From positions 1 through 22,540 of the IMG/VR virus record IMGVR_UViG_3300010370_000270: DNA of 22,540 bases, one strand, 5' to 3'. Below are positions 4,194 to 21,943 of this stretch, in pieces. Below the pieces are notes generated by a model that ran no database searches, was not told the origin of the DNA, and was given only the letters and a program-made list of their open reading frames with translations. The translations under genes and the position numbers were made by a program. This stretch comes from a virus. How positions within the stretch are numbered: position 1 is the stretch's first letter; the number at the start of each line of letters is the position of its first letter.

Positions 4194-4484
4194 ATGGACG
4201 ATCTACCTGAAGATAAATCCGAACAAGAGTTGAAGGACTTAATAAAAGACGCTCTTAAAAACAACATAGAAGTAAAAAAGAAAAAGGTTAGTAAACGTCA
4301 ACTTACTTCAGCTCTTTCAGGCACTCTCGATGAGTTTCTAAATAACTACATTCTGATTGGGTACGATATGGAGGGATCACCAGTAATATTGAGGTCACAT
4401 AAAACTGAAATGGAAAATGAAGCTCTTAAATCCCTCTTTATAAAGTACTTTACTATGTACATGTATAATTATGAAGATTTTTAA
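4194..4484 (+). CDS. Hypothetical acidic/basic small protein (96 aa)
   Basis: Unrecognised. It has an acidic N-terminus, a lysine run (VKKKKVSKRQL, about residues 27-37) and a C-terminal part with LDEFLNNYILIGYDMEGSPVIL followed by a helical region rich in aromatic residues (IKYFTMYMYNYEDF). The charged N-terminal half is probably flexible, while the C-terminal half looks folded. The gene overlaps the next one by 14 nt. A late-type box 5 nt ahead of its ATG could allow separate expression. Confidence 0.65.
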   Translation: MDDLPEDKSEQELKDLIKDALKNNIEVKKKKVSKRQLTSALSGTLDEFLNNYILIGYDMEGSPVILRSHKTEMENEALKSLFIKYFTMYMYNYEDF

Positions 4485-6639: not shown

Positions 6640-7057
6640 ATGCTGGGTTCTCGGTCTGCGAAATATAGCCTCTAAACGATTCTGTTAGAGCAGCAAGCTC
6701 AGTTGCAACACGAGCAATTTTACGCTGTTCAGATTGTTTCATTCTATCGAAGATTGTATCTGGTTCAGCATTAGCTAGCTTAGTTTGTATAGATTCACCA
6801 CTTGTACCATTTAAGAATTCCAAAAACTCATCACACTTCTCAACCCAAACTTGAAGTTCTTGTGCCATCGCTTGAGATTGAGCTGATTTAATTTTAGCAG
6901 CCTGTGCTGTTAGATCTGCAGCTGCAGACTCAGCAGGTGCTGTATCAACGTCAAACTCACCAGGATCAGTTCCTTTGTCGAGAGAAGCAGTCATCGCCTT
7001 CTTTTCTAAGTCCTGTTCGTTTATAACTTTAAAGAATCTACTTTCAAATTTAGTCAT
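6626..7057 (-). CDS. Hypothetical Ala/Gln-rich helical protein (143 aa)
   Basis: Leftward gene read from its own late-type promoter. The start was set at the ATG at 7057 (MTKFESRFFKVINE), because a late box sits 5 nt upstream. The longer frame from 7129 would cover the promoter and the divergent gene's start. It has a short basic/aromatic N-terminus, an acidic Ala/Pro-rich linker (DPGEFDVDTAPAESAAADL, about 32-50), then a long helical region (about 50-135) rich in Ala, Gln and Glu, likely a coiled coil or helical bundle. No family is recognised. Late timing suggests a virion or assembly role. It ends in an intrinsic terminator within the primase gene. Confidence 0.72.
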   Translation of the reverse strand: MTKFESRFFKVINEQDLEKKAMTASLDKGTDPGEFDVDTAPAESAAADLTAQAAKIKSAQSQAMAQELQVWVEKCDEFLEFLNGTSGESIQTKLANAEPDTIFDRMKQSEQRKIARVATELAALTESFRGYISQTENPAFKYV

Positions 7058-7062
7058 AAAAT

Positions 7063-7070
7063 TATTTATT
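7063..7070 (-). promoter_or_regulatory. Late promoter box (AATAAATA) for the 6626-7057 gene
   Basis: AATAAATA on the minus strand, 5 nt before the ATG at 7057. It is back to back with the plus-strand box at 7076-7083, with only 5 bp between them. Confidence 0.6.
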
Positions 7071-7075
7071 CTAGA

Positions 7076-7083
7076 GATAAATA
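7076..7083 (+). promoter_or_regulatory. Late promoter box (GATAAATA) for the 7090 gene
   Basis: GATAAATA on the plus strand, 6 nt before the ATG at 7090. It forms a divergent pair with the box at 7063-7070. Confidence 0.55.
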
Positions 7084-7089
7084 TTTTAA

Positions 7090-7419
7090 ATGAATAACAC
7101 GGGATTTCCTTATAGTGTAGGCATTGCACAAAAGCCTATTACACACGACTCTAATGCTAATGCACATCTTAATATTGCTGCAGAAGAAGAAGCTAGAAGT
7201 AAAGCTGACTCAATACTACCTTATTCCTTAGATCAAACTAATCAAATATTAGCTAATGTATTTGTATCTATGCTGCAAATGAAGAATATTATTAGCCAGG
7301 CTGAAGAAGATCCATCTGTTAATAAGCAGAATTTAAAAGGTCTTATTGATATTATAGACGATATTAACCGAAAAATTACTATAGATATACCTCAACAGCT
7401 TGAAATTTTAGCGTTATAA
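7090..7419 (+). CDS. Hypothetical helical protein (109 aa)
   Basis: Unrecognised. The N-terminus is polar (NNTGFPYSVGIAQKPITHDSNANAHL), followed by two helical stretches (residues about 30-70 and 78-105) with Ile/Leu heptad-like spacing (LKGLIDIIDDINRKITIDIPQQLEIL). It has no membrane span, signal peptide or cysteine. It is the first gene of a short rightward set (7090, 7434, 7873) and has a late-type box 6 nt before the ATG. No Shine-Dalgarno sequence is present. Late timing would favour a structural or assembly role, but nothing in the sequence proves it. Confidence 0.7.
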   Translation: MNNTGFPYSVGIAQKPITHDSNANAHLNIAAEEEARSKADSILPYSLDQTNQILANVFVSMLQMKNIISQAEEDPSVNKQNLKGLIDIIDDINRKITIDIPQQLEILAL

Positions 7420-7433
7420 GGTATACTGATATA

Positions 7434-7856
7434 ATGAATACCGCTATTAGAACAATAATTATATCTTTAATAATTACTATAATTATAAGCGCTGGGTTTG
7501 GTTTTGTCTTTTCAAATATTTTAGGCTTTCTACAAGGAACTATCTTAGCATTTCTAGTACAAATTATACTATTTTATGTGTATAGTTTAGTGAAGCAGAA
7601 TAATATCTCTAAAGTTGAGGAAGAACACTTTAGTATTATAAGTGAAATCGCACAACGTAGCCTAGTTGATGTTGTTTGCCCTTGTGGTGTTAAGGGAGAA
7701 CCAATTGCGTACTTTGATCTAGAAGATGCTTCATTTACGTGTGAGAAGTGTTCTAGTAGATATAGAGTTGAAGTTGTATTCAACCCTGTTCTGCTAACAG
7801 AACCTCTTAATCTAGAGAATGCTTTTACAAAAATAAAGGAAAAGGAACTAGCTTAA
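7434..7856 (+). CDS. Membrane protein with cytoplasmic zinc-ribbon-like domain (140 aa)
   Basis: The protein has two hydrophobic helices at about residues 7-29 (TIIISLIITIIISAGFGFVF) and 31-52 (GFLQGTILAFLVQIILFYVY), forming a hairpin. A soluble C-terminal part carries paired cysteines, C82-P-C84 and C103-E-K-C106, separated by 18 residues, the pattern of a small zinc ribbon. It ends in a charged helix. The hairpin would leave both ends on the same side of the membrane, probably the cytoplasm, as phage membrane proteins usually arrange. No family is recognised; it could recruit a phage or host factor to the membrane. The ATG at 7434 follows the previous stop by 14 nt with TATA directly before it. 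Confidence 0.75.
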   Translation: MNTAIRTIIISLIITIIISAGFGFVFSNILGFLQGTILAFLVQIILFYVYSLVKQNNISKVEEEHFSIISEIAQRSLVDVVCPCGVKGEPIAYFDLEDASFTCEKCSSRYRVEVVFNPVLLTEPLNLENAFTKIKEKELA

Positions 7857-7872
7857 AATAATCATATAATAT

Positions 7873-8115
7873 ATGAAAACTATTAAATTTGAACTAAAGA
7901 ACGGTAAAACGCATGAAATGACTATTGATGAGATGGCTCGATGGGCATGCCTCCTAGAAGGTATTGAGCAAGTTTCTAAAAAATGTAGCGAAATCGGTCT
8001 AGGTGATGATGATGATTGCTGGATTAAACCGCTAGCATTTCAAAAATATATTGATGAAAGATTTCATTCAATGAAGCATGACCTAACGGTAGAAGCTACT
8101 TTAGGGAGACTATGA
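7873..8115 (+). CDS. Hypothetical small protein (80 aa)
   Basis: Unrecognised. It opens with a short strand pair (KTIKFELKNGKTHEMTIDEMARWA), reminiscent of small phage proteins with a two-strand, one-helix start. A helix with two cysteines follows, then an acidic patch (GLGDDDDCW, about residues 43-51) and a helical end. It is acidic overall and soluble. It starts 16 nt after the preceding stop; TATAAT lies directly before the ATG but is too close to serve as its promoter. It overlaps the convergent fibre gene by 6 nt at the 3' ends, and no clear terminator separates the two. Confidence 0.65.
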   Translation: MKTIKFELKNGKTHEMTIDEMARWACLLEGIEQVSKKCSEIGLGDDDDCWIKPLAFQKYIDERFHSMKHDLTVEATLGRL

Positions 8116-9561
8116 AGGACAGCTTAAATTAAATGTATAGTCTACATTACTAATAGGACTATCGATATAAATGTAAGCAGAGGTAGGAGATGGATTGCTC
8201 TTATTAAAGGATAAGACTCCGGAATTAGAGCCAATAACAGGCCCGTAGCCTAAATTAATAAGAGCTCCATTATAATTAGTATCGCCTCTAAACCCAGAGT
8301 TAATAACCTCTACATTATCATACATTACTCTAAATCTGACTGGAACGCCGTTGGTATTAAAGGTTAAGCTTACATCTCCTGTTAAATCTCCTAATAACAC
8401 TTCATATAGATTTAGAGTACTATTACCTTTATAAGTAGCAGTAGTACCACAATCTAACGCAGTAGTAGTTGGACAATTAACGGAAAGAGTAGGTAGTAGT
8501 GTTCTGTTAGTTATACCTGTAGGTATGCTTTGCGTTGATTCCGACCATGCATACCTATAACATAAAGAAATTATATTTTTCTTTAAGCATTGATATTGCG
8601 CTGCAAGTCGCGGTACAGTATTATTAATTGGCAGTAGATTTGTTTCCTCTATATCAGAATAATTATAAAGATAAATCGGATAGTTAAATCTCGTCATTAA
8701 AAATTTATTTGTAGGGGTATTTATATCTCCATCTTTTACTACTACTGCAGTATAAATTGGTGATAATATATTTAAAATATCAGGAGATGAAATATTTTTA
8801 TATTCATCATATACCGACATTGTCTTTGTAGTATTGTTAATTGATGCAGCTATTGTAGTTGGTGTAAATGTAGAGAAGTATAGATTATTAAATGTATAAT
8901 CTATAGATGTAGGGTAATTTTCACCGAAAGCCGGTAGAGTATCGTTATTCTTGAGCAATAATAGCTTATTATTACTGTAATACACTCTATCATATGGTAT
9001 ATTATAAGTCTTAGTGGTAGTATCTACATAGAATGTATTAGTGTTACTTTTAAATGGAACTTTTACACTATAAGTAGATCCCCAACCTACACTAAGCCTG
9101 TATTCGAAATTTACTGCTTGACCGTAATTAACCACAACCTCATTAGTTAATACATTTCTAGCAAACCCTTTACCGTTAAGTGTTTTAACAGAAAATTCGC
9201 GTATAGTCTCTGTTGAAAGTGAAGTGAAATCAGAAGTATACCCTGCTACGTATACTTTAGTACTTAACTGATCGGTAAAAGTCTGTAAGCTATCTCTTTC
9301 TATATCTATCAATTCACTATTTACCGACTTACTAATTACACCATTTAAATCATATCCCTGAGACCCTGGTTTAATTGTACTTGTACCTAAATCAACATAA
9401 CTTATTGCTTCAGGTATACTTAGAGACGAAAGCGAAACAAGACCAGATGATAAAATAGTATTTTTACACCACCCGGTATCTGATATTATATTTTCTTTAT
9501 CGATTACTCTTAGTCTATATTCACCATAAAGACTTATATTGGTATCTAAATTATTGTACAT
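8110..9561 (-). CDS. Putative tail fibre / adhesin protein (483 aa)
   Basis: The last gene of the leftward late region. The N-terminal 170 residues look like the attachment domain seen in many phage fibre proteins: YRLRVIDKENIISDTGWCKNTILSSGLVSL, then YVDLGTSTIKPGSQGYDL, ending with a strand-rich segment (VNFEYRLSVGWG). A Thr/Asn/Tyr-rich beta middle follows. The C-terminal ~100 residues form a small beta-domain (VPVRFRVMYDNVEVINSGFRG ... GVLSFNKSNPSPTSAYIYIDSPISNVDYTFNLSCP), a type common in marine phage fibres and possibly sugar-binding. It starts 11 nt inside the lectin-like gene, so the two are probably co-expressed and may form one fibre. It has no own late box. Naming it an adhesin is inference from domain style and neighbours. 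Confidence 0.75.
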   Translation of the reverse strand: MYNNLDTNISLYGEYRLRVIDKENIISDTGWCKNTILSSGLVSLSSLSIPEAISYVDLGTSTIKPGSQGYDLNGVISKSVNSELIDIERDSLQTFTDQLSTKVYVAGYTSDFTSLSTETIREFSVKTLNGKGFARNVLTNEVVVNYGQAVNFEYRLSVGWGSTYSVKVPFKSNTNTFYVDTTTKTYNIPYDRVYYSNNKLLLLKNNDTLPAFGENYPTSIDYTFNNLYFSTFTPTTIAASINNTTKTMSVYDEYKNISSPDILNILSPIYTAVVVKDGDINTPTNKFLMTRFNYPIYLYNYSDIEETNLLPINNTVPRLAAQYQCLKKNIISLCYRYAWSESTQSIPTGITNRTLLPTLSVNCPTTTALDCGTTATYKGNSTLNLYEVLLGDLTGDVSLTFNTNGVPVRFRVMYDNVEVINSGFRGDTNYNGALINLGYGPVIGSNSGVLSFNKSNPSPTSAYIYIDSPISNVDYTFNLSCPS

Positions 9562-10783
9562 ATATTACGCTAAGGTTGGTTACACCGGTGTATGCTCCTA
9601 CAGGTATTGCAGAACTACCAATATAGGTATTTACACCGGAAGTTATTTTCCATGGATCGCCAAACGCTGTAAGTTTTGCGGTTATGGTATTACTAGTATT
9701 TGTATAGTTAAAGACATTATCTCTAGTTAAAGCAGCATTTAATTCAATAACACTCAACTTATAACCAAAATTAAATAAATCAATTCCTGTAGCAGTATTA
9801 ACGCACGTTGTAATATTACAGGTATCAACGCCCACTGTGTTACCTTCTGATAAATAAGCGTAAGCACGAGCTCCATCTGACTCTTCTATATTTGTCGTAT
9901 TGAAGTTAATAACCCGTGGAATTGTATCAATACACGGTTCAGTTATACATACAGGGTTAGCTGAAATACAGTTAAAAGTTAAGCATCTATAGTCTGCCGG
10001 TAAAATACCTAAATCTATATCGCATACATCAGTACTAGCATCGCAATTTATTGCGCATCCAGAATATAGATTCTCGTCTGATGTGCCTTCAACGTGGAAA
10101 TTTTTAAAGTGAATTGTTCCTGTATGGATATAGTTATCAGAGCTAATAGGAGTCGCAAAAGAGACACCTACTTTATATAAAGATGTCATAGCAGGGTATA
10201 ATGTTACATCTTTAGTTAAGATATTTGTAAAATAATCACTAGTATTATTTCTATAATCTATATAAAGTGTGCGACCTAAATTACCAAGTCTAGCTCTTAT
10301 AGTTTTGTAATTTAAAGCACTCTCAACTACATAAAAAGTAGTATTGGTGAGAGCGGAAATAGATGATGTAAAACTTTCCTCATTGTAACTATATTCAGGC
10401 CATCCTCCTCGAATAGTTATAGAGTTTTTAATTACTTTATCTATACCAATACCGTCTCTAATAACACTGCTACCAATAGATGCAGATGCTGCAAATAATC
10501 CTGTAGAATCAAATCCTACTCCTAGTAAAGCACCGGAGATACCTTGTTCAATACTATACGGTAGACTTGCAGAAGATAAGCCTGAATAACCTAAATCAAT
10601 ACCAGTATTACCTCCAGATAAAGGAATATTTTCCATTAAGAAAACAGTAAATCCTCCCTGAACATTGCTATCACCTACTATAGCGTAGTCAAATGACCAT
10701 ACTATATCAAAAAAAGGAGAGTATGCACCGCTACTAGCGAAGTTAATACATTTTGTAGTATTAGGTAGAGCAGGGTACTGCAT
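9551..10783 (-). CDS. Putative receptor-binding protein with L-type lectin-like domain (410 aa)
   Basis: Residues 1-235 follow the order of an L-type (legume) lectin beta-sandwich: FDYAIVG, GGFTVFLMENIP with GIDLGYSG, ALLGVGFDSTGLF, KNSITIRGG, a strand pair (RTLYIDYRNN), TKDVTLYP, LYKVGVSFATP and a closing IHFKNFHVEG. A cysteine-rich part (C243, 247, 254, 267, 272, 279, 284, 322, 327) comes next, then a strand-rich C-terminal region (about 330-410). The likely role is carbohydrate recognition on the host surface. A perfect TATAAATA late box lies 6 nt before its ATG, immediately after the stop of the upstream small gene. The 3' end overlaps the next fibre gene by 11 nt. The lectin call rests on pattern and needs structure prediction to confirm. 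Confidence 0.72.
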   Translation of the reverse strand: MQYPALPNTTKCINFASSGAYSPFFDIVWSFDYAIVGDSNVQGGFTVFLMENIPLSGGNTGIDLGYSGLSSASLPYSIEQGISGALLGVGFDSTGLFAASASIGSSVIRDGIGIDKVIKNSITIRGGWPEYSYNEESFTSSISALTNTTFYVVESALNYKTIRARLGNLGRTLYIDYRNNTSDYFTNILTKDVTLYPAMTSLYKVGVSFATPISSDNYIHTGTIHFKNFHVEGTSDENLYSGCAINCDASTDVCDIDLGILPADYRCLTFNCISANPVCITEPCIDTIPRVINFNTTNIEESDGARAYAYLSEGNTVGVDTCNITTCVNTATGIDLFNFGYKLSVIELNAALTRDNVFNYTNTSNTITAKLTAFGDPWKITSGVNTYIGSSAIPVGAYTGVTNLSVIYVQ

Positions 10784-10789
10784 ATAATA

Positions 10790-10797
10790 TATTTATA
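10790..10797 (-). promoter_or_regulatory. Late promoter box (TATAAATA) for the lectin-like gene
   Basis: A perfect T4 late consensus on the minus strand, 6 nt before the ATG at 10783. It directly follows the TGA of the upstream small gene. Confidence 0.75.
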
Positions 10798-11010
10798 TCA
10801 CGGGTCTTTTACAAAGACACACGTCATATGACCATCTGTTTTAAATTTTGTAACGTGCTTGAGACTAAATCCGAGCTTTTTATACTCTCTGTAAACAGTC
10901 TTGAATAAATCATCATCTATGTTGAGGATTATGCTCTGCCTTTGTTTATCTACTAAAACAAAGTCAGTAAACTCTTCACCTAGTGAATATGCTCGCTCAC
11001 TACCCCCCAC
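10798..11010 (-). CDS. Hypothetical small protein (70 aa), GTG start
   Basis: Unrecognised. I place the start at the GTG at 11010, because an AATAAATA late box ends 5 nt upstream, matching the spacing at neighbouring late genes. A longer reading from a TTG at 11037 would run through that box and through the stop of the small gene upstream. The product starts MGGSERAYSLGEEF and has alternating strands and a helix (DDLFKTVYREYKKLGFSL, about residues 35-52), ending in GHMTCVFVKDP. It looks like a small alpha/beta fold. It lies between fibre genes and its own box suggests late expression; a chaperone or assembly role is possible but not shown. Confidence 0.68.
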   Translation of the reverse strand: MGGSERAYSLGEEFTDFVLVDKQRQSIILNIDDDLFKTVYREYKKLGFSLKHVTKFKTDGHMTCVFVKDP

Positions 11011-11015
11011 ATAAT

Positions 11016-11023
11016 TATTTATT
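11016..11023 (-). promoter_or_regulatory. Late promoter box (AATAAATA) for the 70-aa gene
   Basis: AATAAATA on the minus strand, 5 nt before the GTG at 11010. It contains the TAA stop of the 54-aa gene upstream. Confidence 0.6.
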
Positions 11024-11183
11024 CTTCTGCTAAACAATTAACTATCTCGGTTATTTTACTGTATAGATTTAATACGTCTATATAAGATATGTCGTCATTA
11101 AGTGAAACCTTATAAGATCTTAAAATATCACCTAATAGCTTAAAATCTTGCGGTGTTAATCCCTCTACAATTAATTCTTCCAT
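11019..11183 (-). CDS. Small hypothetical protein (54 aa)
   Basis: A short complete frame, ATG at 11183 to TAA at 11019. It encodes MEELIVEGLTPQDFKLLG, a polar middle and a helical end (SKITEIVNCLAEE). The 54 residues are acidic, helical and free of low-complexity sequence. It fills what would otherwise be a 180-nt gap between the double-collar gene and the 70-aa gene, in the same direction as its neighbours. Its stop codon is inside the late box of the next gene, as seen at the neighbouring junction 10790-10800. No own late box or Shine-Dalgarno sequence is visible; the gap from the upstream gene is 33 nt. I do not recognise a family. Confidence 0.6.
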   Translation of the reverse strand: MEELIVEGLTPQDFKLLGDILRSYKVSLNDDISYIDVLNLYSKITEIVNCLAEE

Positions 11184-11216
11184 ATACAATACTAATTAAT
11201 CAACTCTTAATGCTAA

Positions 11217-12824
11217 TCAATACTTAATACAGTAATTCATAGCTATATTTCTAGGTCGGGTCTCGGTAGCTATTCTAGGAGCTCCATTAGTACCGTCGTT
11301 AGTAGCAGCACGCACATGATTTTTAGCTTGTAGTGTCGCAGAACCTACACCGGGAGTAGTTGAGCTAGTTTGGGTAGTTTGTATGATGTCTGCAGGACAG
11401 CTATTAGTATCGTTTAAGCAATCAAATCCAACTGCTTCTCCAAATGAATGCCAGTGACCCTGGAATGCATCTGCTTGTTTTGCTCCAAATGTACCAGAAG
11501 CAGTTGAGTCGCTATTTGTTCCAGCACCGCGGACAAAATAACCGCGAAGATCGGGAAGATTGAATGTTGTAGAACCGTCACCCGCGCCATATGGTAGAGA
11601 AGGTACTGATGAAGAAAGTACTCTAAATAACGACGAGTATGCAGTGCGACTTATCGCATTACCATTACACGATAACCAACCTGCAGGTGGGAAGTCCATT
11701 GCAAACGCCATAACTGCGCCAGTTGGTATACCATTATCAGTGAGAGTAGTACCTACCACTAAATCACCTCTGAGACTATTAACTGTGCTATCAGTTACAT
11801 TAACTCCATCTAAAGTAGCTGTAAGCGGTGATTTAATGGTAATAGTTGAATTAACAACAGTATCAGGTTTAGCTTTAATAATATAAAGAGCTCCTGATGC
11901 ACTTAACTGTGAATTACTACCAGATGCAATATTAAATGTTGTAGATGTAGAAGGAGATGAACCTACCCCGTATATAGTTTTATTTACAAAGTTTGGTACA
12001 TTGAAATTTGTAGTATTGCCACCGTAGGTTGTTCCTATTACAGCAGATAGCTCTCTATAACTAGCACCTGGTACTGATTGACCGTTACACAACAACCAAC
12101 CTGTAGGTGCACTACCTGCAGAAATATAAGGCATTATTGAACCTACAGGAATTTGACTTGCTGTTCCAGCTACATATACGGTATTGTTACCAGCATCATC
12201 CCACTGTAAGGTTCCATCATACTGCGATGTTAAGAACTTACCAGGGCCACCTACATAGGAAGGTAGTATAAAATTAGTACTATTAACTGATATATTCGAA
12301 GGAATATTTAAATATGTTGATCCTTGTTCAATATTAATAGTTTTAACAGCTATTGTTGAACTTAACGCAATCTTATTACTTCCATCAAGTCTTAAACCAC
12401 TACCTAAAGCATTTGTCGAAAAATTACCTGCAGATAATCTATTTACAGTAATATTATTTGTATTTGATATAGAAATAGTTCCATTACCTGCTGTGTACTT
12501 ACCACCTACATTTTCCCAATTCAATATGTTAGCAGGGTCTCCTCCCTTGAATGCGTAAAAAATATTATTATCATTATCGTAGGCTAAATCTCCAGAAACA
12601 GCTGATGTTAAAACTGTTACATCTGGTACGGATCCTAAGAAACTAGATCCGGCAACAGGTATACCGCCTACGGTTTGACCATCACCAATGTATAATTTTT
12701 TAGTGTCTGTTGTATATCCTAATTCACCCTCTGAAAGAGTAACTTGTTTTCTATCAAGATCACTTCCTCTACGTACTAGAAGTTTTAAGAGAGTATTTTC
12801 AAATATTTCTATTTTTTTCGGCAT
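11217..12824 (-). CDS. Tail fibre protein with Mtd-like N-terminal module and two tail-collar domains (535 aa)
   Basis: Residues 14-58 (VRRGSDLDRKQVTLSEGELG, then KKLYIGDG) form the short module known from the N-terminus of phage tropism determinants, used to mount fibres on the tail. After a beta-rich stem come two phage tail-collar domains: residues 225-285 (VGSIMPYISAGSAPTGWLLCNGQ ... NFNVPNF) and 366-432 (TGAVMAFAMDFPPAGWLSCNG ... FNLPDLRGYFVRG). The first is followed by ALYIIKA, the usual end of a collar protein. The second continues to a collar-type end (ETRPRNIAMNYCIKY). A single HWH at 457-459 resembles the metal-binding HxH of T4 short and long fibre needles. It lies 8 nt after the homologous upstream gene and has no late box of its own. 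Confidence 0.9.
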   Translation of the reverse strand: MPKKIEIFENTLLKLLVRRGSDLDRKQVTLSEGELGYTTDTKKLYIGDGQTVGGIPVAGSSFLGSVPDVTVLTSAVSGDLAYDNDNNIFYAFKGGDPANILNWENVGGKYTAGNGTISISNTNNITVNRLSAGNFSTNALGSGLRLDGSNKIALSSTIAVKTINIEQGSTYLNIPSNISVNSTNFILPSYVGGPGKFLTSQYDGTLQWDDAGNNTVYVAGTASQIPVGSIMPYISAGSAPTGWLLCNGQSVPGASYRELSAVIGTTYGGNTTNFNVPNFVNKTIYGVGSSPSTSTTFNIASGSNSQLSASGALYIIKAKPDTVVNSTITIKSPLTATLDGVNVTDSTVNSLRGDLVVGTTLTDNGIPTGAVMAFAMDFPPAGWLSCNGNAISRTAYSSLFRVLSSSVPSLPYGAGDGSTTFNLPDLRGYFVRGAGTNSDSTASGTFGAKQADAFQGHWHSFGEAVGFDCLNDTNSCPADIIQTTQTSSTTPGVGSATLQAKNHVRAATNDGTNGAPRIATETRPRNIAMNYCIKY

Positions 12825-12832
12825 AATATTAA

Positions 12833-14155
12833 TTAATAACTAAATATAGGAATTGCAAATCTACCCACGTCAGATGTGTCTTCTGTAGTTTCTGCACTTT
12901 CAAATGTAATAAATCCAGCAGAGGTTAATTTTATTGTTGTAGAGTTTATTACACCCCCCACATCATAAGCTGATGTTACGTTTAAAATAGTCTGATTTCT
13001 ATACCCGTAGTTAGAAGTAACTTGATTAGGGCAGCCATTAAAGACAGATAGGTAAGAATTTGTTGAATGTGAAGCGGTTAACCCACTATAAATTGTTGGT
13101 ACGGTACTTGTAATTTGACCTTTTGAGTTATATACTATTCCTCTAAATACCGCTTGACCAGCTCCTATAATATCAGCAATTTCAAATTCATTGCCTACAG
13201 TTACTAGCGTTACATCATCTGTAACTGGAACATCAGCTTGAAGCTTACCTGTAGTACTATTAATACTTAAATTATCACCTATTACTGGTCCAAAGTTTGT
13301 ATAAAAACCAAGTCCGGTAGTGAAGGAAATACCACTACCTGGTATTGCAAGAGTATTACCGTCAAAAGCTATTTTATCAGTAGGATCTAGCGTTAATCCA
13401 TAGCCTAAAATATTGTCTTTGTCAAGTATTAGTTTATCATCATTATCTAAAGCTAAACCATCTCCGTATATTGTAGTTGTATCAATACTATCAAGAGTCG
13501 CTATCTTACTAGGTAAGCTAGTAAGTTTTAAGAATTTAGTTGATACATCAAACCCGAAACCTGGTCCTACGTTTAAGTTAATTTTACTTCCACCGCCTCC
13601 TAATAAACCTGCACCTATGGCATTAGTGCTAATTTTATCTGCACTAATTGGTGATATTGTAATTTTATTAGAGCTTAAAGTTACGTAAGTACCATCGACG
13701 TTAGCTGATAATCCGTTTGATGCTGTAGCTATAATACCACCGAACTGATAGCCTGCAGTTGTATCAAAACTATTATTATTAATAGAATTATCTTTTAAAG
13801 ATAATACCTTTGCATCAGTACCAGTATATTCTAGAGTAACGTTATCTGGCTTGCCGCTGATAATAGCCCAAGAAGATAGCGATGCATAGTCTGTAGCAGT
13901 TAGCTGATAAATTAAAGACCCGGCAGGTACTAGCTCGCCTATACTTGCTGGTACTCCTGTAATAGAGGATGTCTTACTTAGAGGAGTGTATATCTGTGGC
14001 GCTACTGCTAAACCACCTGGCGTTACACCGTCTCCAATAAATAAGCGCTTAGTATCAGTAGTAAAACCTAACTCACCTTGTTCGAGAGTAATAGCTTTTC
14101 TCTGATCATCTGTACCTCTACGTACTTTAATTTTTACTATTGTTACATTAGGCAT
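12833..14155 (-). CDS. Tail fibre protein with Mtd-like N-terminal module (440 aa)
   Basis: Residues 10-55 (VRRGTDDQRKAITLEQGELG, KRLFIGDGVTPGG) are homologous to the N-terminal module of the next gene, and the similarity continues into the stem (ISTNAIGAGLLGGGGSKINL here, FSTNALGSGLRLDGSNKIAL there). The middle has repeats of the type GDGLALDNDDKLIL and GYGLTLDPTDKIAF, a repeated beta-stem. The C-terminal ~130 residues differ from the neighbour and may be the tip (for example FRGIVYNSKGQITS, SYGY-like loops, then FITFESAETTEDTSDVGRFAIPIFSY). The pair is likely a tandem duplication that diverged at its tip. The start is 1 nt after the S74 gene's stop, so translation is coupled. It is probably a virion fibre component. 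Confidence 0.82.
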   Translation of the reverse strand: MPNVTIVKIKVRRGTDDQRKAITLEQGELGFTTDTKRLFIGDGVTPGGLAVAPQIYTPLSKTSSITGVPASIGELVPAGSLIYQLTATDYASLSSWAIISGKPDNVTLEYTGTDAKVLSLKDNSINNNSFDTTAGYQFGGIIATASNGLSANVDGTYVTLSSNKITISPISADKISTNAIGAGLLGGGGSKINLNVGPGFGFDVSTKFLKLTSLPSKIATLDSIDTTTIYGDGLALDNDDKLILDKDNILGYGLTLDPTDKIAFDGNTLAIPGSGISFTTGLGFYTNFGPVIGDNLSINSTTGKLQADVPVTDDVTLVTVGNEFEIADIIGAGQAVFRGIVYNSKGQITSTVPTIYSGLTASHSTNSYLSVFNGCPNQVTSNYGYRNQTILNVTSAYDVGGVINSTTIKLTSAGFITFESAETTEDTSDVGRFAIPIFSY

Positions 14156-14156
14156 A

Positions 14157-14885
14157 TCACTTATTATTAATTATTGTTACAAGCTCTTTAACCGCTTCTA
14201 TCAAAATCGATGTTATTTTACCGTAATCTATAGCTAACGGTTCATTGTTTTCGTCTTTCTGTACGACTTCTGGTAACACTTTATTTACTTCTTCAGCTAT
14301 AAAGCCTATATCGCTATTACCAGTCTCTTTCCAATCGAACCGCACACCTTCCAATTTTTGTAAAATATCTAGAGCGTTAGTTAAGGGCGCGATGTTAGTT
14401 TTAAATCTTTTAGATGATGTTGAGTTATAGGATACAGCAGTTGCTGAACCAGTAATATCTAAATTAGCGCCTACTGAAACAGTACCACCTGCAGGGTTGA
14501 GATTTAAAATAGTTCCTGATCCATTGTTACGAGCTTGAATTTCATTACAGTCAAAAACTAAATTGGTGCTAGTTGACGTTCCAATTTGAAGAGCATTATT
14601 AGTAGACGCTAAGGTTGCTTCAGTACAATTTTCTATTCTAATATAATTATCTCCTACAATTACATCACTTCCTAGATCAATACCACTACTTACTATATTA
14701 TCGCAGGAAAGAGTTCCGCAAATAGTAGCGCCATTACAGTTCGAACCAAGTTTTAAAGCTGAAGGAGTACCATATCCGTCGTAAATTCGCGCTTGCGTTG
14801 TATCAAGCGGAAGAGGTGAACCAAAGGCATGGAGCAATCCGTTGAAAGTTTCACTTATATTGGTAGGTCCTAAATTACTAGGCAT
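14157..14885 (-). CDS. Tail fibre with C-terminal S74 intramolecular chaperone (242 aa)
   Basis: A short fibre. The N-terminus (NISETFNGLLHAFGSPLPLDTTQARIYDGYG) would attach it, followed by a Cys-containing beta-stem (NCNGATICGTLSCDN, about residues 49-63). The last ~95 residues are an S74 endosialidase-type chaperone: SYNSTSSKRFKTNI, GVRFDWKETG, DIGFIAEEVNKVLPEVV, AIDYGKITSILIEAVKEL. In this family the domain drives trimerisation of the beta-stem and then cuts itself off at a Ser; here the SerThrSerSer before KRFK is the likely site. It is the first gene after a perfect late promoter. A paralogue with the same domain is at 20270 on the other strand. Confidence 0.92.
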   Translation of the reverse strand: MPSNLGPTNISETFNGLLHAFGSPLPLDTTQARIYDGYGTPSALKLGSNCNGATICGTLSCDNIVSSGIDLGSDVIVGDNYIRIENCTEATLASTNNALQIGTSTSTNLVFDCNEIQARNNGSGTILNLNPAGGTVSVGANLDITGSATAVSYNSTSSKRFKTNIAPLTNALDILQKLEGVRFDWKETGNSDIGFIAEEVNKVLPEVVQKDENNEPLAIDYGKITSILIEAVKELVTIINNK

Positions 14886-14894
14886 AGCTTACAT

Positions 14895-14902
14895 TATTTA
14901 TA
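14895..14902 (-). promoter_or_regulatory. Late promoter box (TATAAATA) for the S74 fibre operon
   Basis: A perfect late consensus on the minus strand, 9 nt before the ATG at 14885. It lies in the 46-nt gap after the 650-aa gene and would drive the S74, 440-aa and 535-aa fibre genes. Confidence 0.75.
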
Positions 14903-14931
14903 CCAACCACATTAATATCTACCGTATAACC

Positions 14932-16884
14932 TTATAAAACGAAAACATTTGTGTACGGAGAATTTCTAACATTAATAACAGGCTTTATATTTTCGCTGTC
15001 AATCTTAGTTAGCTCAAGTAACTGTGTTTGTAGCTTGAAAATATTAGAAAGAGGTCTGTTAATAACACCAATTATATTTTTTTCATTATCATTAATGAAA
15101 TAATTTTCCTGTTCTAATAATTTAAACTCTGAGAAATCTATATTATAGTTATAATCAGTTAATCTTAAAATCCCTGTGTAGTCATATTCGCCGCTAAACC
15201 TACCTACTATGTTATTTTTAATTGCAAATATATCACGTAAAAGCTTATACAGCTCTTTATTTATAGTTGTTGTATGTATGTAATCTGTGCCTAGAATCCC
15301 CATGTCCTCTTTACCAAAGTTTTCTAAATTACTAGTTTTTATAGAGCGTTTATCTAAATTAGGCTCATCGTAAACATATAATCTTGCACCAGAAAATAAT
15401 AGACCTTTATCATAATTTTGAGGAGTCTCTAATAATCTCATTCCTGCAGTAAACTTATCATTCTGCATCGAGGTCTGTAAGAAAGAGACTACGCTTCCTT
15501 CAGTTATCGTTCTATATGTAACAGGAGCAGCTCTCCATTCCCAGTTAGCGTTGTAATAAATAATAGACCCCTGATTATTCCAGAGGTTAGACGTAGCATC
15601 TGCATCGGTAACTTCATCTAATGCTGATAAAGTTGTTCTAGTTGCTTTAATATTATTAAAAAGTTTATTCTCACCATATCTACCTATTAGTGTAGTTGGT
15701 TTACTTACGAAAAATTTATATATTTCGTTAGTTGTGCATATGTAATAGTAATTACTGTTGTTTTTTGAAAACTCTATATTTTTAACTAACTCGCCCTTGC
15801 TCAGTGTAATATTATATTCAACAGTATCTATCAATGTTAAGCATGTAGCGTCTAGTAAGTATAACTTGAGACCATTGTTATTATATGCTACAACATACAA
15901 CAGATTAAAAAACGGCGAGAACTCCATTGCTGCAACAGGGTTCTTTATAAATGGTATATTGGTAATTTTATTAATGTAGTTAAAATTAAGATCATATACT
16001 TTTATTACAAAGTTATTTGAATCATATACCGTTAAGTACTTACCATTGGTAGCTATTTGCTTCGGACCATTAAATCTACTTTTGTCGCGTTTTGTTCCTT
16101 TACCTCCTAGCGCTTCTAAATAATTGCGTTTATTTTTAATCGCTGAATCGTTATTATAGTACCCAACTATATCGTATTTGTATATAACATTATTATCGTA
16201 ATCGCTTATAAAAATATTATTCTCATAACGACAAATGTTAGATAAATTGCCGTATGGTAATACATTTTCTGTCGACTCAATAAAATTAGATCTTTCAACT
16301 ATATTAAGGTCGTTGTTATTACCTGTAAGAGTTATAAAGCTATTATCTGTTATAGCAAATATAGAAAAGTTACTGGGAACTTCCACATTTAAAGCTGCAG
16401 CATAATCCTTTACGCTACTCAAATAACCGAAGTTAGCTGAATTAAAAAATGGAATCGTAGGTGAATAATTATTGTACTTTGTAAAAGAAGTATCGTTAGT
16501 AGCGCTTATACCGTAATAAAACAAATTACTAGATACAGGCAAATCATTATTCGCCATAAACATTCTCGAATATAAATAAATGTTATTTTCGCGAATTTTG
16601 TTAAACTTATCATTTAAAAGACTGGCTGTTAGATAATCGTTAGGCTGAAACAAAACCTTATCTTCACTAAAAGGTAGTTCGATAGATTCATTTATATCTC
16701 TATCTCTAAAGTACGTTGATGTTAGTAAATCACCATCAAATGAAGGCAATGCTGATAATAATGTATTTGTATTATATACATAAGGAATTCCACTCAAAAC
16801 ACTTACATAGCCAGTAAAATCACCGGTAAGTGTTTGAAAAGTACCAGCCTCAACATATTGTTTTTTAAAGTTATAATATTCCAT
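14932..16884 (-). CDS. Large virion protein with beta-propeller-like repeats (650 aa)
   Basis: The protein begins with YYNFKKQYVEAGTFQTLTGDFTGYVS. The middle (about residues 205-400) has repeats of the NHL/propeller kind: NNVIYKYDIVGYYN, FNGPKQIATNGKYLTVYDSNNFVIKVYDLNFN, PVAAMEFSPFFNLLYVVAYNNNGLKLYLLD, VKNIEFSKNNSNYYYICTTNEIYKFF. Each pairs a readout strand with the next element, suggesting blades. The C-terminal ~150 residues are more helical (INKELYKLLRDIFAIKNNIVGRFSG, ending LLELTKIDSENIKPVINVRNS). The start codon overlaps the stop of the 1101-aa gene (TAATG), so the two proteins are likely made together and may interact. A baseplate or fibre-base role is inferred from context; no enzymatic motif is visible. 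Confidence 0.78.
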   Translation of the reverse strand: MEYYNFKKQYVEAGTFQTLTGDFTGYVSVLSGIPYVYNTNTLLSALPSFDGDLLTSTYFRDRDINESIELPFSEDKVLFQPNDYLTASLLNDKFNKIRENNIYLYSRMFMANNDLPVSSNLFYYGISATNDTSFTKYNNYSPTIPFFNSANFGYLSSVKDYAAALNVEVPSNFSIFAITDNSFITLTGNNNDLNIVERSNFIESTENVLPYGNLSNICRYENNIFISDYDNNVIYKYDIVGYYNNDSAIKNKRNYLEALGGKGTKRDKSRFNGPKQIATNGKYLTVYDSNNFVIKVYDLNFNYINKITNIPFIKNPVAAMEFSPFFNLLYVVAYNNNGLKLYLLDATCLTLIDTVEYNITLSKGELVKNIEFSKNNSNYYYICTTNEIYKFFVSKPTTLIGRYGENKLFNNIKATRTTLSALDEVTDADATSNLWNNQGSIIYYNANWEWRAAPVTYRTITEGSVVSFLQTSMQNDKFTAGMRLLETPQNYDKGLLFSGARLYVYDEPNLDKRSIKTSNLENFGKEDMGILGTDYIHTTTINKELYKLLRDIFAIKNNIVGRFSGEYDYTGILRLTDYNYNIDFSEFKLLEQENYFINDNEKNIIGVINRPLSNIFKLQTQLLELTKIDSENIKPVINVRNSPYTNVFVL

Positions 16885-19800
16885 TATTTAAAGTCTATAA
16901 ATTGTATATCGTTAACTGTAGCACCCACTGGTAAGTTAGCTTGAGCTTCTGATAGAATTAAATTCTTAATATTATTCTGCATATCAATATCAGATATACC
17001 AGAATTTTTTACATAGATATTTATCTTCTTGGAAGATGCTGCAACAGGATCAAATTTAAAGTACCTCTCTATTTCTTCGAGGTTATTTCGTTGCCCCGCT
17101 GGTATTGATAATACCAAATCATTTATAGGTTCGCCATATAATGACATGGCATATATTTCATCATCTGTTATCGCTCTATTGTAAATAAGTAAATTTCTAA
17201 CTTTTAAATCACGTATAAAATAATATCCTTCTTGATTTAGGTATGTAGCTAAATCTTGTGAATTGTAGAATCCAGTACTACCTACATAAACATCATCATT
17301 GAAAATATCTTGAATTGTATATTTACCCGGAGGAACATTTTCACGACCGTAAAAATTACCATTTATATATAGTTCTATACTACCTTTCAGTGAGTCAAAC
17401 CTATATGTAAAGGTATGATATCCTTTATCTATATCATCTCTCTTAACTCTTATATCCTTAGTAACTATATCTTCAGAGGATAGATAATTAGTAAGTGTTA
17501 GTTTAAAATTTAACGCACTTGAATACTCTACTTGCTTAAAGTGATTAAAATTAGTAAGCTGTGACTTATTTCTGTTTACATATCGTGTTTTATAACTTGA
17601 ATTGATTGACTTAGCAGAAAGACCAGTAGTTATAATTGTTGAGGTTGAACCGTAAAATAATTTTAAGTTTGAATTTTCATCTACAAAAGACATTACATAT
17701 GATTCAGATGCTCCGGTGTTAGCATACTCTTTTATTATATCTATACTGATAAACTTGCTCGAAAGACCTATTATAGAACTATAATCTGAACTATCAATTA
17801 CATTTCTATTTTCATCAAAAGTTATTATTTTTGTACTATCGTATAATACAGTTATATTGTTATTAGATGTAATAGCAAAATCTATTATGTTTTTAGCACT
17901 TGATGCTACAAACTGCGTATAGTTACCGCTACGTAAATTTTGTTGTATAATGGTCTCGTCGTTGATAGAATAATATATATTATCTTTGTTTATGTATTTA
18001 ACTTTTTGACCCGGTAAGGTGAGATACTGATTTTCGTACTTTATTATACTCTCATCACCTAAAATCGAGAAGTTAGATATAAATGGCGTTGGTGTAGCGG
18101 TAGTAGGTGTAAAGGTAGTTTTATTTACTTTAAATACCCTTGGTGTTGATCCTCTTACATAGAAGACAATTTCATTATCATCTTGACAAAACGAACTATA
18201 GTTTATTATACCTGGCAGTATTTCTAATTTTTGCTTTATACCTAGTGTATTGACTTTATATAAATATCCGCTTTCACACGAGACAAAGAAATCACCTAAA
18301 GCATCAGACAATATAACATCAATTATATTTTGAGCAAAAGTAACCGTGTTTATTAAATCTCCACTACTGTTAAATATTCTAAGCTCCGTTTTATCAAAAG
18401 CATATACAAACGGGGTAATTGCAGGGTCATTAATGACACCAAATCCTTTGTTAGTTAAATTGCCTAGTAATTGATATCCATAATTTTTATTAGGGTCAAT
18501 ATATGCATCGAAGGTTATAGAAAAGGAATTTGTATTTGGAGCGTCGCGTGAAATATTAAATTTATTATACTTCGTGCCATCATACACAATTTCTTGATTA
18601 CTGTAAGCAATTTCAATATTACGGGTATTGTAATAACCTGTAAATCCGCTAGCTGTAGGGCGAGATGTAGATATTTGATCGTTTATATCTTGTTCACTTA
18701 TTCGTGAATAATAGTAACGGGTACTAGGTAACAAGCATAAGTCGCTTTGTTTATCATAATATCCTTTTTTAGCTAAAGCAGCTCTATCAATTGTACCTAT
18801 AGAGTCGATTGAATCATAAAATGATGGCGCATAAACAGGGTAGCCTGACAAAGCATCTTGCTTAGTAGCGAAATCAGGGTAATAATATCTATCTAACCAT
18901 ATACCAGGCTTATTATAATTGCCTCCTGATAACCAGGTACATAGATATCTACCGTTTTCGTAATTTGTTACACCGCTTTTTAATAAAAATACTTTATCAG
19001 ATAGATATGGTGTCTTACCACCGAAAGCTCCATTTACAATAAATTTTGTATCGTTAATGTTTAGGCGTTCGAATGGGTAAAGTGAAGATGGAGTAGTAAA
19101 ATAAGTATCAGATCCCGGTGTAACCTTGATATCTTTATCGTACCAAATATAAGTCAGTGCAATATTATCATTACCACCTTCTTGGCTATTACCAGTTTGA
19201 AGAGACATATACTCTCTAAAATTAGCATCGGGAGATAAAGGTATACCTTGTTCAAGATTTGCTCCACGCTTTACGTAATTTTTTTCAGATCTAAAGTTAT
19301 TTAACGGTACGTAATTTAAATCTATACTCTCACCCGCCTGGTTATAATTAGCGTGCAACATATACTGCGTATAGCGATCAAATTCACTTTTTTGGGTATT
19401 TATTGTTAAATTATTAGGTTTATTTATATCGTAAGAAATCCAAGAGTTGTTTAAGATAGGCTCAATACCTGTAAAATTGTAATTTATTTTGATAGTATTG
19501 TTAAGAGCCGTAATACTACCACCTGTGTCAATTGGCTTTAAGACTATTCTATCACCTTCAAGAGTTATAATCTTTATACCGCTACGTGTTTTTTTAAACA
19601 ATTGCAAGTAGCCTTTTTTGTCTAGATAATATCTAAACATATCATTACGCTCACTTGTCAGAGCTAAAGTTTCGGAAGAATAGCTATAAAACATTAGAGT
19701 ATCATCTTCCAGAGCATTTAAAAAGAAATCTCTGGCTCCGTTATTGTGCTTTACTCTTAAAAATACGTTACTTAGAACCTCTAACTCAAACTTAGTATTA

Positions 19801-20189
19801 TTTTCATAACCTACATCTGATGATAGAAGCACTCTGCAAGAAACTACATTAGGATCGTCAATAAAGGTTTTATAGATATATAGATATCTATTAAGCGATG
19901 GTATAGTTCCGCTATCTATATTAAAGATTAACGGCGTTGTTATAGTTTTTATCTCAATAGGCTTTTCTTTTAAAGAAAATACATCTGTAAATAAAATTGT
20001 ATCCGTTAGATAAGTTGCCGTATAGTTATTAATAGTACTGTCTAAAGTATTAGTCAGAGCGTTAACCTTATTAAGTGCAAATCCCTGCTCATAACCAGCT
20101 CGATATTGATTATACTTTAAAAGAGGATCTGAATACTTTACATCCAGTGTGTTAATAGCAGAAACATTGTATGTACTTAAACTTATCAC
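16884..20189 (-). CDS. Giant virion adhesin with split LamG-like domain around propeller-like sequence (1101 aa)
   Basis: The first gene of the leftward late region, with a GTG start and a CATAAATA box 6 nt upstream. Residues 1-540 are beta-rich and unrecognised. At about 550-600 there is the first half of a LamG/concanavalin-like domain (NSFSITFDAYIDPNKNYGYQLLG). Residues about 610-870 look like a propeller (LGDFFVSCESGYLYKVN, NEIVFYVRGSTPRVFKVN, NNNITVLYDSTKIITFDENRN). The second LamG half follows at 890-1020 (YHTFTYRFDSLKGSIELYINGNFYG, VYVGSTGFYN, IRDLKVRNLLIYNRAITDDEI). A conserved-looking C-terminal tail (1025-1101, IPAGQRNNLEEIERYFKFDP) may anchor it. It probably binds surface sugars or forms part of the baseplate edge. 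Domain boundaries are by eye. Confidence 0.8.
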   Translation of the reverse strand: MISLSTYNVSAINTLDVKYSDPLLKYNQYRAGYEQGFALNKVNALTNTLDSTINNYTATYLTDTILFTDVFSLKEKPIEIKTITTPLIFNIDSGTIPSLNRYLYIYKTFIDDPNVVSCRVLLSSDVGYENNTKFELEVLSNVFLRVKHNNGARDFFLNALEDDTLMFYSYSSETLALTSERNDMFRYYLDKKGYLQLFKKTRSGIKIITLEGDRIVLKPIDTGGSITALNNTIKINYNFTGIEPILNNSWISYDINKPNNLTINTQKSEFDRYTQYMLHANYNQAGESIDLNYVPLNNFRSEKNYVKRGANLEQGIPLSPDANFREYMSLQTGNSQEGGNDNIALTYIWYDKDIKVTPGSDTYFTTPSSLYPFERLNINDTKFIVNGAFGGKTPYLSDKVFLLKSGVTNYENGRYLCTWLSGGNYNKPGIWLDRYYYPDFATKQDALSGYPVYAPSFYDSIDSIGTIDRAALAKKGYYDKQSDLCLLPSTRYYYSRISEQDINDQISTSRPTASGFTGYYNTRNIEIAYSNQEIVYDGTKYNKFNISRDAPNTNSFSITFDAYIDPNKNYGYQLLGNLTNKGFGVINDPAITPFVYAFDKTELRIFNSSGDLINTVTFAQNIIDVILSDALGDFFVSCESGYLYKVNTLGIKQKLEILPGIINYSSFCQDDNEIVFYVRGSTPRVFKVNKTTFTPTTATPTPFISNFSILGDESIIKYENQYLTLPGQKVKYINKDNIYYSINDETIIQQNLRSGNYTQFVASSAKNIIDFAITSNNNITVLYDSTKIITFDENRNVIDSSDYSSIIGLSSKFISIDIIKEYANTGASESYVMSFVDENSNLKLFYGSTSTIITTGLSAKSINSSYKTRYVNRNKSQLTNFNHFKQVEYSSALNFKLTLTNYLSSEDIVTKDIRVKRDDIDKGYHTFTYRFDSLKGSIELYINGNFYGRENVPPGKYTIQDIFNDDVYVGSTGFYNSQDLATYLNQEGYYFIRDLKVRNLLIYNRAITDDEIYAMSLYGEPINDLVLSIPAGQRNNLEEIERYFKFDPVAASSKKINIYVKNSGISDIDMQNNIKNLILSEAQANLPVGATVNDIQFIDFK

Positions 20190-20195
20190 TGCTAT

Positions 20196-20203
20196 TATTT
20201 ATG
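20196..20203 (-). promoter_or_regulatory. Late promoter box (CATAAATA) for the 1101-aa gene
   Basis: CATAAATA on the minus strand, 6 nt before the GTG at 20189. It supports GTG as the true start. Confidence 0.6.
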
Positions 20204-20218
20204 TATGTATTAAGTTTA

Positions 20219-20239
20219 TAGTGTAGTAATTTTACACTA
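20219..20239. repeat. Inverted repeat between divergent late promoters
   Basis: TAGTGTA (20219-20225) and TACACTA (20233-20239) form a 7-bp perfect inverted repeat with a 7-nt centre. It is almost midway between the leftward box at 20196-20203 and the rightward box at 20257-20264. No T-run follows on either strand, so it is not a normal terminator; it may be a protein-binding site. Confidence 0.5.
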
Positions 20240-20256
20240 GATAAAGATTCTGCCTG

Positions 20257-20264
20257 AATAAATA
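20257..20264 (+). promoter_or_regulatory. Late promoter box (AATAAATA) for the rightward S74 fibre
   Basis: AATAAATA on the plus strand, 5 nt before the ATG at 20270. Confidence 0.6.
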
Positions 20265-20269
20265 ATATC

Positions 20270-21943
20270 ATGCCAGTTAGTATTCCTATTAATACATTAG
20301 CTACTCTTTCTTCTAGCAGAGTTACCGGTAAAGAAACACTACCTGCTGTTCAAATTGAAGGTGGTAATGCTTATACATATCAAGTTGCAGTAAGTAGCTT
20401 GTTTTATCCCAACTCTATAGGAACCGACCAACTTCAAGATGGTAGTGTGATTGGAAGTAAATTAGGAGACGGTGCTCCAAAATGGAATACCAGCGGTACT
20501 CTTTCTTTATCTGGAAATTTAGAAGTAGGAAGCAAGACATCCTCCCCATTAACTCTTTCTTTAGGGTATGATAGAGCAGCAGCAGGCGACACATCGATAT
20601 TAATGTATTCAGATGTTGGTACAATACCCGATGCTACTATAGTAAGAAAAACTGGTACAAATGGAGCATTTGAACTTACAAACACCGGTACGGGCTTCTT
20701 AACTCTTAAACAAACTGCTGGCTCTCCAATAACCTTTCAAACTAATAGCGTAGAAAGAGCGCGTATTACCAGTGCTGGTCGTGTAGGTATAGGTACTATA
20801 TCACCGAGAGCAGAATTAGATGTAGCTGGTACGGTAGTATCTACTTCGATGAGCGCTACTAATGCTACTTTCCCTAGTAATGTATCGCAATCTTTAACAG
20901 ATGGTGCAATAATTTTACCTGGTACAGGAGGTGCTATTGTTATTGATAATAACGGTCATAAGAGAATATCCTGGAACGATGGAGGTGGTAATCTTATCAT
21001 AAGAGCCGGTAATTATTATAATGGTACTAATACAGTCTTTGTTAAAGATCCCGGTAGTAGTAACGGTGGAGCATCAACAATGACTTTTGATTCCGATGGA
21101 ATAGATGGTGCAATTACCCTACAGGTAGCAGGTATCGGTGTTCCAGGTGCTACTGTATCTTACGATAATTCTGTACGTCTAACTAAAGACAATTTTTATA
21201 CACCAGGTAATGTCGGTGTAGGAGTAGTAAGTCCTACTGAGAAACTCGAAGTTAGCGGTACCGTTAAATCTACAGCTATTGAAACCACGGGTAGCGCTAC
21301 TATTAACGGTGGTACAGATTTAGGTCAATTTACTAGAACCGGTACTAGTGTTACAACAGGTGAAACAAATATAGGTCTAGGATACAATCGTACTGGTAGC
21401 GGCGTATCTAAGCTCCTCTTATACGGTAGAGCAGGATCAGGAGCCACTGGATATACTACGCTACAAAAAGAAGGCGGTGATAATGGAAATACTACTCTAT
21501 CAGACACTGGTACGGGTACATTATATTTTACAAAAAATAACGCAGCTGGTACAATTCGTTTTCAAACCGGTGGTACAAACGATAGAATGACTATCTTAGC
21601 AAACGGTAATGTAGGAATAGCTACAGTAACACCTACTACACCTTTAGAAGTTAATGGTGCAGTTAAAGCTGTATCATATAACTCTACCTCTTCATTAAGA
21701 TATAAAGAAAATGTAAAACCGTTAGAAGGTGCGTTAGATATAGTATCTAAATTAAATTCAGTGCGATTTGATTGGAAGAAAGACGGTAAATCAGATATAG
21801 GTCTTATTGCAGAAGAAGTAGATAAAGTTTTACCAGAACTAGTGCTTAAAAACGATCAAGGAGAACCAGATGCTATTGACTATGGTAAGCTAACTTCTAT
21901 TTTAATAGGTGCGATAAACGAAATAAAAAGCACACTAAAATAA
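20270..21943 (+). CDS. Tail fibre with triple stem repeat and C-terminal S74 chaperone (557 aa)
   Basis: The N-terminal ~60 residues (PINTLATLSSSRVTGKETLPAVQ) probably attach the fibre. The shaft carries three copies of a fibre repeat: VGIGTISPRAELDVAGTV, VGVGVVSPTEKLEVSGTV and VGIATVTPTTPLEVNGAV, separated by longer beta-helical segments (for example SLGYDRAAAGDTSILMYSD and GLGYNRTGSGVSKLLLYGR, also alike). The last ~90 residues are an S74 chaperone: SYNSTSSLRYKENV, VRFDWKKDGKSDIGLIAEEVDKVLPELV, AIDYGKLTSILIGAINEI. Expected biology is trimer assembly followed by self-cleavage at the Ser before LRYK. It is a clear paralogue of the 242-aa S74 protein. It starts after a late box and ends 9 nt before the next fibre gene. 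Confidence 0.93.
   Translation: MPVSIPINTLATLSSSRVTGKETLPAVQIEGGNAYTYQVAVSSLFYPNSIGTDQLQDGSVIGSKLGDGAPKWNTSGTLSLSGNLEVGSKTSSPLTLSLGYDRAAAGDTSILMYSDVGTIPDATIVRKTGTNGAFELTNTGTGFLTLKQTAGSPITFQTNSVERARITSAGRVGIGTISPRAELDVAGTVVSTSMSATNATFPSNVSQSLTDGAIILPGTGGAIVIDNNGHKRISWNDGGGNLIIRAGNYYNGTNTVFVKDPGSSNGGASTMTFDSDGIDGAITLQVAGIGVPGATVSYDNSVRLTKDNFYTPGNVGVGVVSPTEKLEVSGTVKSTAIETTGSATINGGTDLGQFTRTGTSVTTGETNIGLGYNRTGSGVSKLLLYGRAGSGATGYTTLQKEGGDNGNTTLSDTGTGTLYFTKNNAAGTIRFQTGGTNDRMTILANGNVGIATVTPTTPLEVNGAVKAVSYNSTSSLRYKENVKPLEGALDIVSKLNSVRFDWKKDGKSDIGLIAEEVDKVLPELVLKNDQGEPDAIDYGKLTSILIGAINEIKSTLK

Follow-up and report, generated by a model that had tools for sequence, protein, structure and literature searches.

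In phage T4, the late-promoter box spans positions -13 to -6 relative to the transcription start, with its first base at -13 (PMC2988020). Late promoters of the NATAAATA type are also known in cyanophages (PMC2984593), and in bacteria leaderless genes are conventionally recognised by an upstream TATAAT-like signal about 12 bp from the start codon (PMC3160421). Here we describe late-promoter boxes in IMG/VR record IMGVR_UViG_3300010370_000270, a 22.5-kb virus record of an uncultured T4-like phage (22,540 nucleotides, analysed as a whole and called the window below), and in its relatives, referred to as the clade. According to the original prediction, the boxes of the window lie so close to start codons that late mRNAs would be leaderless. 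The observation is confirmed, and the comparisons presented here support and extend its interpretation. Late promoters, together with many early ones, abut start codons in a group of T4-like phages that is widespread and uncultured, and the spacing is conserved across the clade. In the openly readable literature, no description of leaderless late transcripts was found for T4-like phages. Phage AR9 was considered as a leaderless parallel and rejected, since its untranslated regions are actually 26-491 nt long.

Late-promoter boxes in the window

Exact NATAAATA was found at 8 sites in the window. The boxes are:

7063-7070, minus strand: late box AATAAATA, 5 nt upstream of ATG 7057
7076-7083, plus strand: late box GATAAATA, divergent, 6 nt upstream of ATG 7090
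10790-10797, minus strand: late box TATAAATA, 6 nt upstream of ATG 10783
11016-11023, minus strand: late box AATAAATA, 5 nt upstream of GTG 11010
14895-14902, minus strand: late box TATAAATA, 9 nt upstream of ATG 14885; predicted leader of about 4 nt
20196-20203, minus strand: late box CATAAATA, 6 nt upstream of GTG 20189
20257-20264, plus strand: late box AATAAATA, 5 nt upstream of ATG 20270
4181-4188, plus strand: late box CATAAATA, 5 nt upstream of ATG 4194; absent from the original prediction

The seven spacings predicted earlier proved exact (5 nt for 7057, 11010 and 20270, 6 nt for 7090, 10783 and 20189, and 9 nt for 14885), and the operon-internal starts 16884, 14155, 12824 and 9561 indeed have no exact box 5-9 nt upstream. 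The further claim that the box follows the heads of transcription units holds for these internal starts but is softened in the wider clade, where 61 of 202 box-led genes (about 30%) overlap an upstream gene on the same strand or are at most 30 nt away from it. The box thus marks promoters and not just operon heads.

The word ATAAATA is no more frequent in the window than expected (19 copies vs 21). With shuffled upstream regions giving an expectation of 0.2, 5 ATG starts are preceded by it at 5-7 nt, and 2 GTG starts add to them. Thus, the signal lies in the position of the box.

As side observations, the gene at 4194-4484 has a late box (4181-4188) although it lies within the replication cluster, and the box upstream of 14885 is followed, ahead of that start, by a minimal open reading frame (ORF), ATG-TAA (14894-14885, minus strand; TATAAATA ATG TAA GCT ATG).

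Spacing in related and reference phages

To compare spacings, ATAAATA was counted before the ATGs of long ORFs. In a first survey of gp32-related loci (about 1.04 Mb), it occurred 71, 69 and 26 times at 5, 6 and 7 nt, where the background was a few occurrences at each spacing. A closer analysis covered 12 of the longest contigs, with expectations taken from shuffled upstream regions. At 5-7 nt, each contig carried 6-25 sites, compared to an expectation of 0.2-1.7, and counts at 16-32 nt were at or below expectation except in one contig. Spacings of 8-9 nt are also present in the clade. Conversely, the marine virus AG-345-L05 and the phages T4, Syn9, P-SSM2 and S-SKS1 had 10-28 sites at 16-32 nt but only 0-1 at 5-7 nt. 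Enrichment of 5-6 nt spacings across the genome, set beforehand as a check, is therefore present in the relatives and absent from these five phages.

Among all 7-mers located 5-7 nt before ATGs in the clade IMG/VR contigs and the window, ATAAATA ranks first (164 vs 4.7 expected). Chance occurrence in A/T-rich sequence was ruled out by dinucleotide shuffles, permuted words and this ranking. A general T4-like feature was ruled out as well, as T4, cyanophages and a Campylobacter phage show the leadered spacing.

Divergent gene pair and choice of start codons

The clearest case of box placement is a divergent pair in which both boxes fit between the two start codons:

7058-7089, no strand: divergent intergenic region of 32 bp, both outward-facing boxes inside
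6626-7057, minus strand: 143-aa gene (MTKFESRFFKVINEQ...), clade-conserved, predicted leaderless
7090-7419, plus strand: 109-aa gene (MNNTGFPYS...), clade-conserved, predicted leaderless

Homologues of the 7057 gene were collected by their N-terminal protein motif alone (MxxFxxxFF..L.EQ, n=19). The exact box was observed 5 nt before the start in all 19 loci and a reciprocal box for the opposite gene in 16 of the 19, with start codons 32-33 bp apart. Gaps of 31-33 bp between divergent start codons occur in the window (7058-7089) as well as in the related records G002 (21372) and G013 (1002), and a second divergent pair (MAKKYLTLVEAYLSR / MEFDQLVEEILLEKS) has the same layout.

These loci bear on the question of whether the starts were assigned correctly. 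Start codons were picked partly by ORF rules and many genes have downstream in-frame starts, so that a normal late promoter might be followed by an ordinary leader and a later in-frame codon. However, in box-to-box comparisons of orthologs the starts align in 381 of 440 cases (87%). On either side of the 32-33 bp gap, conservation of MTKFE.RFF...EQ and of its divergent partner begins with residue one. In the case of the tail sheath gene gp18, T4 has TATAAATA-N28-ATG with an SD-like GAGG (SD, Shine-Dalgarno), while in G002, G005 and G008 only 5 nt separate the box from the ATG, and the N-terminus of the encoded protein is homologous to and aligns with that of T4. RefSeq starts of Pelagibacter phage HTVC008M agree, lying 5 nt after the box for the baseplate cap, a baseplate wedge subunit, the DNA end protector, the tape measure and a baseplate initiator. 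We therefore consider wrongly annotated starts very improbable. Additionally, the G002 gene with an N-terminus like that of 10783 (MQYPVLN...) has GATAAATA 6 nt upstream of its ATG.

Predicted transcription start

The original prediction relied on the rule by which a T4 late box fixes the transcription start, and this rule is documented: the box begins at -13, which makes +1 the sixth base downstream of the box. For a gap of 5 nt, +1 would be the A of the ATG, and overall it would coincide with the start codon or precede it by 1-2 nt.

The initiator bases fit this position. At 5-nt sites, a pyrimidine at -1 followed by a purine at +1 (YR at box+5/+6, or Y5R6) was found in 96% of cases, vs 27% at other ATAAATA words; operon-internal genes of the clade have Y at -1 in 58%. 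The 7-nt sites keep YR at box+5/+6 in 80% (vs 27% at other ATAAATA; Fisher p 2e-6), which indicates that the initiator signal is tied to the box and not to the codon. As far as sequence can tell, YR at box+5/+6 is consistent with a T4-type start about one turn downstream of the box, and in leadered T4 and cyanophage-type promoters a purine occupies box+6 in 75-93%. Furthermore, starts 5-7 nt after the box comprise 24 GTG and 1 TTG, compared to 18 GTG and 30 TTG at 10-40 nt (p 7e-7). The use of GTG, which provides a purine at +1, and the avoidance of TTG at box-adjacent starts support the predicted +1 on the start codon.

The predicted +1 thus lies at or a few nt from the start codon, which is the promoter geometry expected of leaderless mRNA. 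The earlier claim that mRNAs begin at or near the start codon gains support from the initiator signature, the GTG/TTG bias and the divergent gaps of 31-33 bp, and from these we infer the leaderless step itself.

The boxes might also be used by a gp55 that initiates farther upstream or downstream than that of T4 and leaves short real leaders. The gp55 of the clade is divergent, spacings of 8-9 nt occur, and the start position is a prediction. We regard such a shift as improbable, given that YR is positioned at box+5/+6, that the leadered references share the purine at box+6, and that 5-9 nt is too short for an SD site unless initiation takes place upstream of the box.

Early promoters and the missing Shine-Dalgarno signal

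The prediction of leaderless late mRNAs stood but was too narrow, as promoters of the sigma70 type also abut start codons and the clade has no SD signal. Counts of TATAAT in the clade are highest at a distance of 6 nt from the ATG (53 cases vs about 7-22 at neighbouring spacings). TATAAT precedes the ATG by 5-8 nt in 111 promoters, and 47 of these have TTGA at the normal spacing, with a gap of 18-19 nt. No TATAAT peak before the ATG was seen in the T4, cyanophage and pelagiphage genomes scanned. The gp43 and gp55 genes of several clade members lie on such start-abutting TTGA/TATAAT promoters, and in the window we found one before gp32:

1839-1867, plus strand: sigma70-type promoter TTGATT-N17-TATAAT, 11 nt before the gp32 start at 1879; leader of about 5 nt

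A further element, GGAAC-N5-TATAAT, lies 4-9 nt before starts, with 12 copies in G001 (IMGVR_UViG_3300042309_002885) and 18 in G003 (IMGVR_UViG_3300017716_002841) at exact N5. It may be a middle promoter with an activator site.

SD-like words are not enriched before operon-internal genes of the clade (0.09 vs 0.09 in shuffled sequence), nor before those of RM378 (0.11 vs 0.12). The corresponding values are 0.56 vs 0.13 for T4 and 0.49 vs 0.18 for HTVC008M, and others are also well above the shuffled rate. This suggests that the host of the clade probably starts translation independently of SD.

An alternative is that ATAAATA is a translation-initiation or low-structure signal, with leadered transcripts arriving from upstream, rather than a promoter. 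Upstream regions of the clade are A/T-rich throughout, and an A-rich upstream context aids SD-independent initiation in Flavobacterium (PMC6847099). Nevertheless, the exact word and spacing are those of a T4 late promoter, and most operon-internal starts lack the box. The initiator signature and the GTG/TTG bias track the predicted transcription start, independent sigma70 -35/-10 pairs occupy the equivalent position, and homologues of gp55 and the clamp are present. We give the translation-signal explanation very little chance.

Transcription machinery, phylogeny and host

Homologues of gp55 were detected in nine clade records (E 1e-45 to 1e-49), none of them within the window fragment, which encodes the clamp:

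3134-3862, plus strand: gp45-like sliding clamp, a component of the T4 late-transcription machinery

In trees of gp20 and gp43 the clade is monophyletic and falls outside the T4, cyanophage and SAR11 phage groups (support 100/99 and 98/99), a placement limited by long branches and midpoint rooting. By its position in these trees, the clade appears Far-T4-like and fits the Far-T4 phages of PMC4360716.

Hosts predicted for Far-T4 phages are Flavobacteriales (PMC13037479) and Bacteroidetes (PMC7198788), and Flavobacterium transcripts are mostly leadered (PMC6847099). Promoters of the Bacteroidota type (TANNTTTG) were not enriched at clade starts, where early promoters are TTGA/TATAAT instead. The promoter type would thus sit badly with the published Flavobacteriales link, while the absence of SD fits it. 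WhiB was absent in 17 of 17 records, a result still compatible with an actinobacterial host. Among phage contigs in GTDB genomes, one scan returned no relatives and a second only two distant matches.

A profile search found no phage bS21 in the clade. The protein is encoded by pelagiphages and OM43 phages whose late genes are partly leadered and partly leaderless (HTVC008M 91228-91431 and homologues in Mosig and Melnitz). The sole tRNA genes among the clade records scanned, Ile(tat) and Arg(tct), lie at L155 526-684 (G001).

Gene content of the window

The replication cluster of the window comprises a helicase C-terminus, gp32 at 1879, the gp45 clamp at 3134, an exonuclease at 4730 and a primase at 5593, and it is adjoined by a tail-fibre region. 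The gp32 protein is only about 30-40% identical to those of the nearest annotated phages, and no close relatives of the window were found besides IMG/VR contigs. The other box-led genes are:

4194-4484, plus strand: 96-aa gene, clade-conserved, near the sliding clamp gene
9551-10783, minus strand: 410-aa gene with no assigned function, tail-fibre region
10798-11010, minus strand: 70-aa gene with a GTG start, predicted leaderless; upstream of the G002 counterpart of 10783 lies a similar C-terminal coding sequence
14157-14885, minus strand: tail-fibre-like gene, C-terminus matching baseplate/tail-fibre families
16884-20189, minus strand: 1101-aa gene, GTG start, with a 48% identical relative in IMG/VR
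20270-21943, plus strand: 557-aa tail-fibre/baseplate-like gene

Proposed mechanism and its assessment

We propose that the host RNA polymerase, with a gp55-like sigma factor and gp45-like clamp of the phage, would read the boxes as T4-type late promoters and initiate at a fixed position, box+6, which in the clade coincides with the first base (A or G) of the start codon or precedes it by 1-2 nt. As this start falls on or near the start codon, late mRNAs would be leaderless or carry leaders of 0-4 nt, to be translated by ribosomes recognising a 5'-terminal AUG or GUG. Since early promoters share the geometry and internal genes lack SD, leaderless and SD-independent expression would be the general mode of this clade and presumably suited to its host. 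We infer the actual 5' ends, the recognition of boxes by gp55, leaderless translation and the host property. T4-type late promoters with leaderless mRNAs (0-4 nt leader) as a general host-matched strategy seem to us likely. The broader proposal, a whole lineage without 5' leaders in early, putative middle and late transcripts, wholly reliant on leaderless and SD-independent translation, is one towards which we lean only slightly.

Several points weigh against this interpretation. The clade contigs are mutually related, and the counts are consequently not fully independent. No clade protein matched the gp33 profile, gp33 being either too divergent or absent, so the T4 late machinery is not fully matched. 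At 6-nt sites Y5R6 is weaker (37%); YR at box+5/+6 or box+6/+7 reaches 82%, and the start position may vary by 1 nt. Finally, many genes of HTVC008M, Mosig and Melnitz are leadered with SD, and only part of their boxes lie at 5 nt.

If the proposal is true, abundant uncultured phages have adapted the T4 late-transcription module to produce leaderless mRNAs, and promoter-to-start geometry follows the translation mode of the host. This may explain why late-promoter detection was unsuccessful in a survey of pelagimyophages (PMC7029224). It would also provide a sequence trait that constrains the hosts of Far-T4-like phages, with HTVC008M on SAR11 as a cultured test case.

Comparison with known systems

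T4 late promoters, served by gp55, gp33 and gp45, share with the clade the TATAAATA-type box, homologues of gp55 and gp45, and late structural genes downstream. As the original prediction had stated, T4 late genes are usually leadered with SD. Their boxes lie mostly 16-32 nt before the ATG, whereas those of the clade lie at 5-7 nt and have no SD. Cyanomyophages (S-PM2, Syn9, P-SSM2) resemble the clade in the degenerate first base and core word (PMC2984593) but are leadered, with boxes at 16-32 nt and 0-1 at 5-7 nt per phage scanned (S-PM2 being outside the scan).

Far-T4 phages (Roux et al. 2015) are, like the clade, an uncultured aquatic T4-like group. Their cultured representative RM378 shares the absence of SD but has only 1 box case at 5-7 nt. 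In the cultured HTVC008M and its relatives Mosig and Melnitz, a subset of the boxes precedes annotated structural-gene starts by exactly 5 nt, as in the clade. Leaderless genes of Actinobacteria and Deinococcus-Thermus resemble the clade in the placement of the TATAAT-like signal. The clade differs from them in that a phage-encoded sigma factor is predicted for its late leaderless mRNAs and in that operon-internal genes, too, are without SD.

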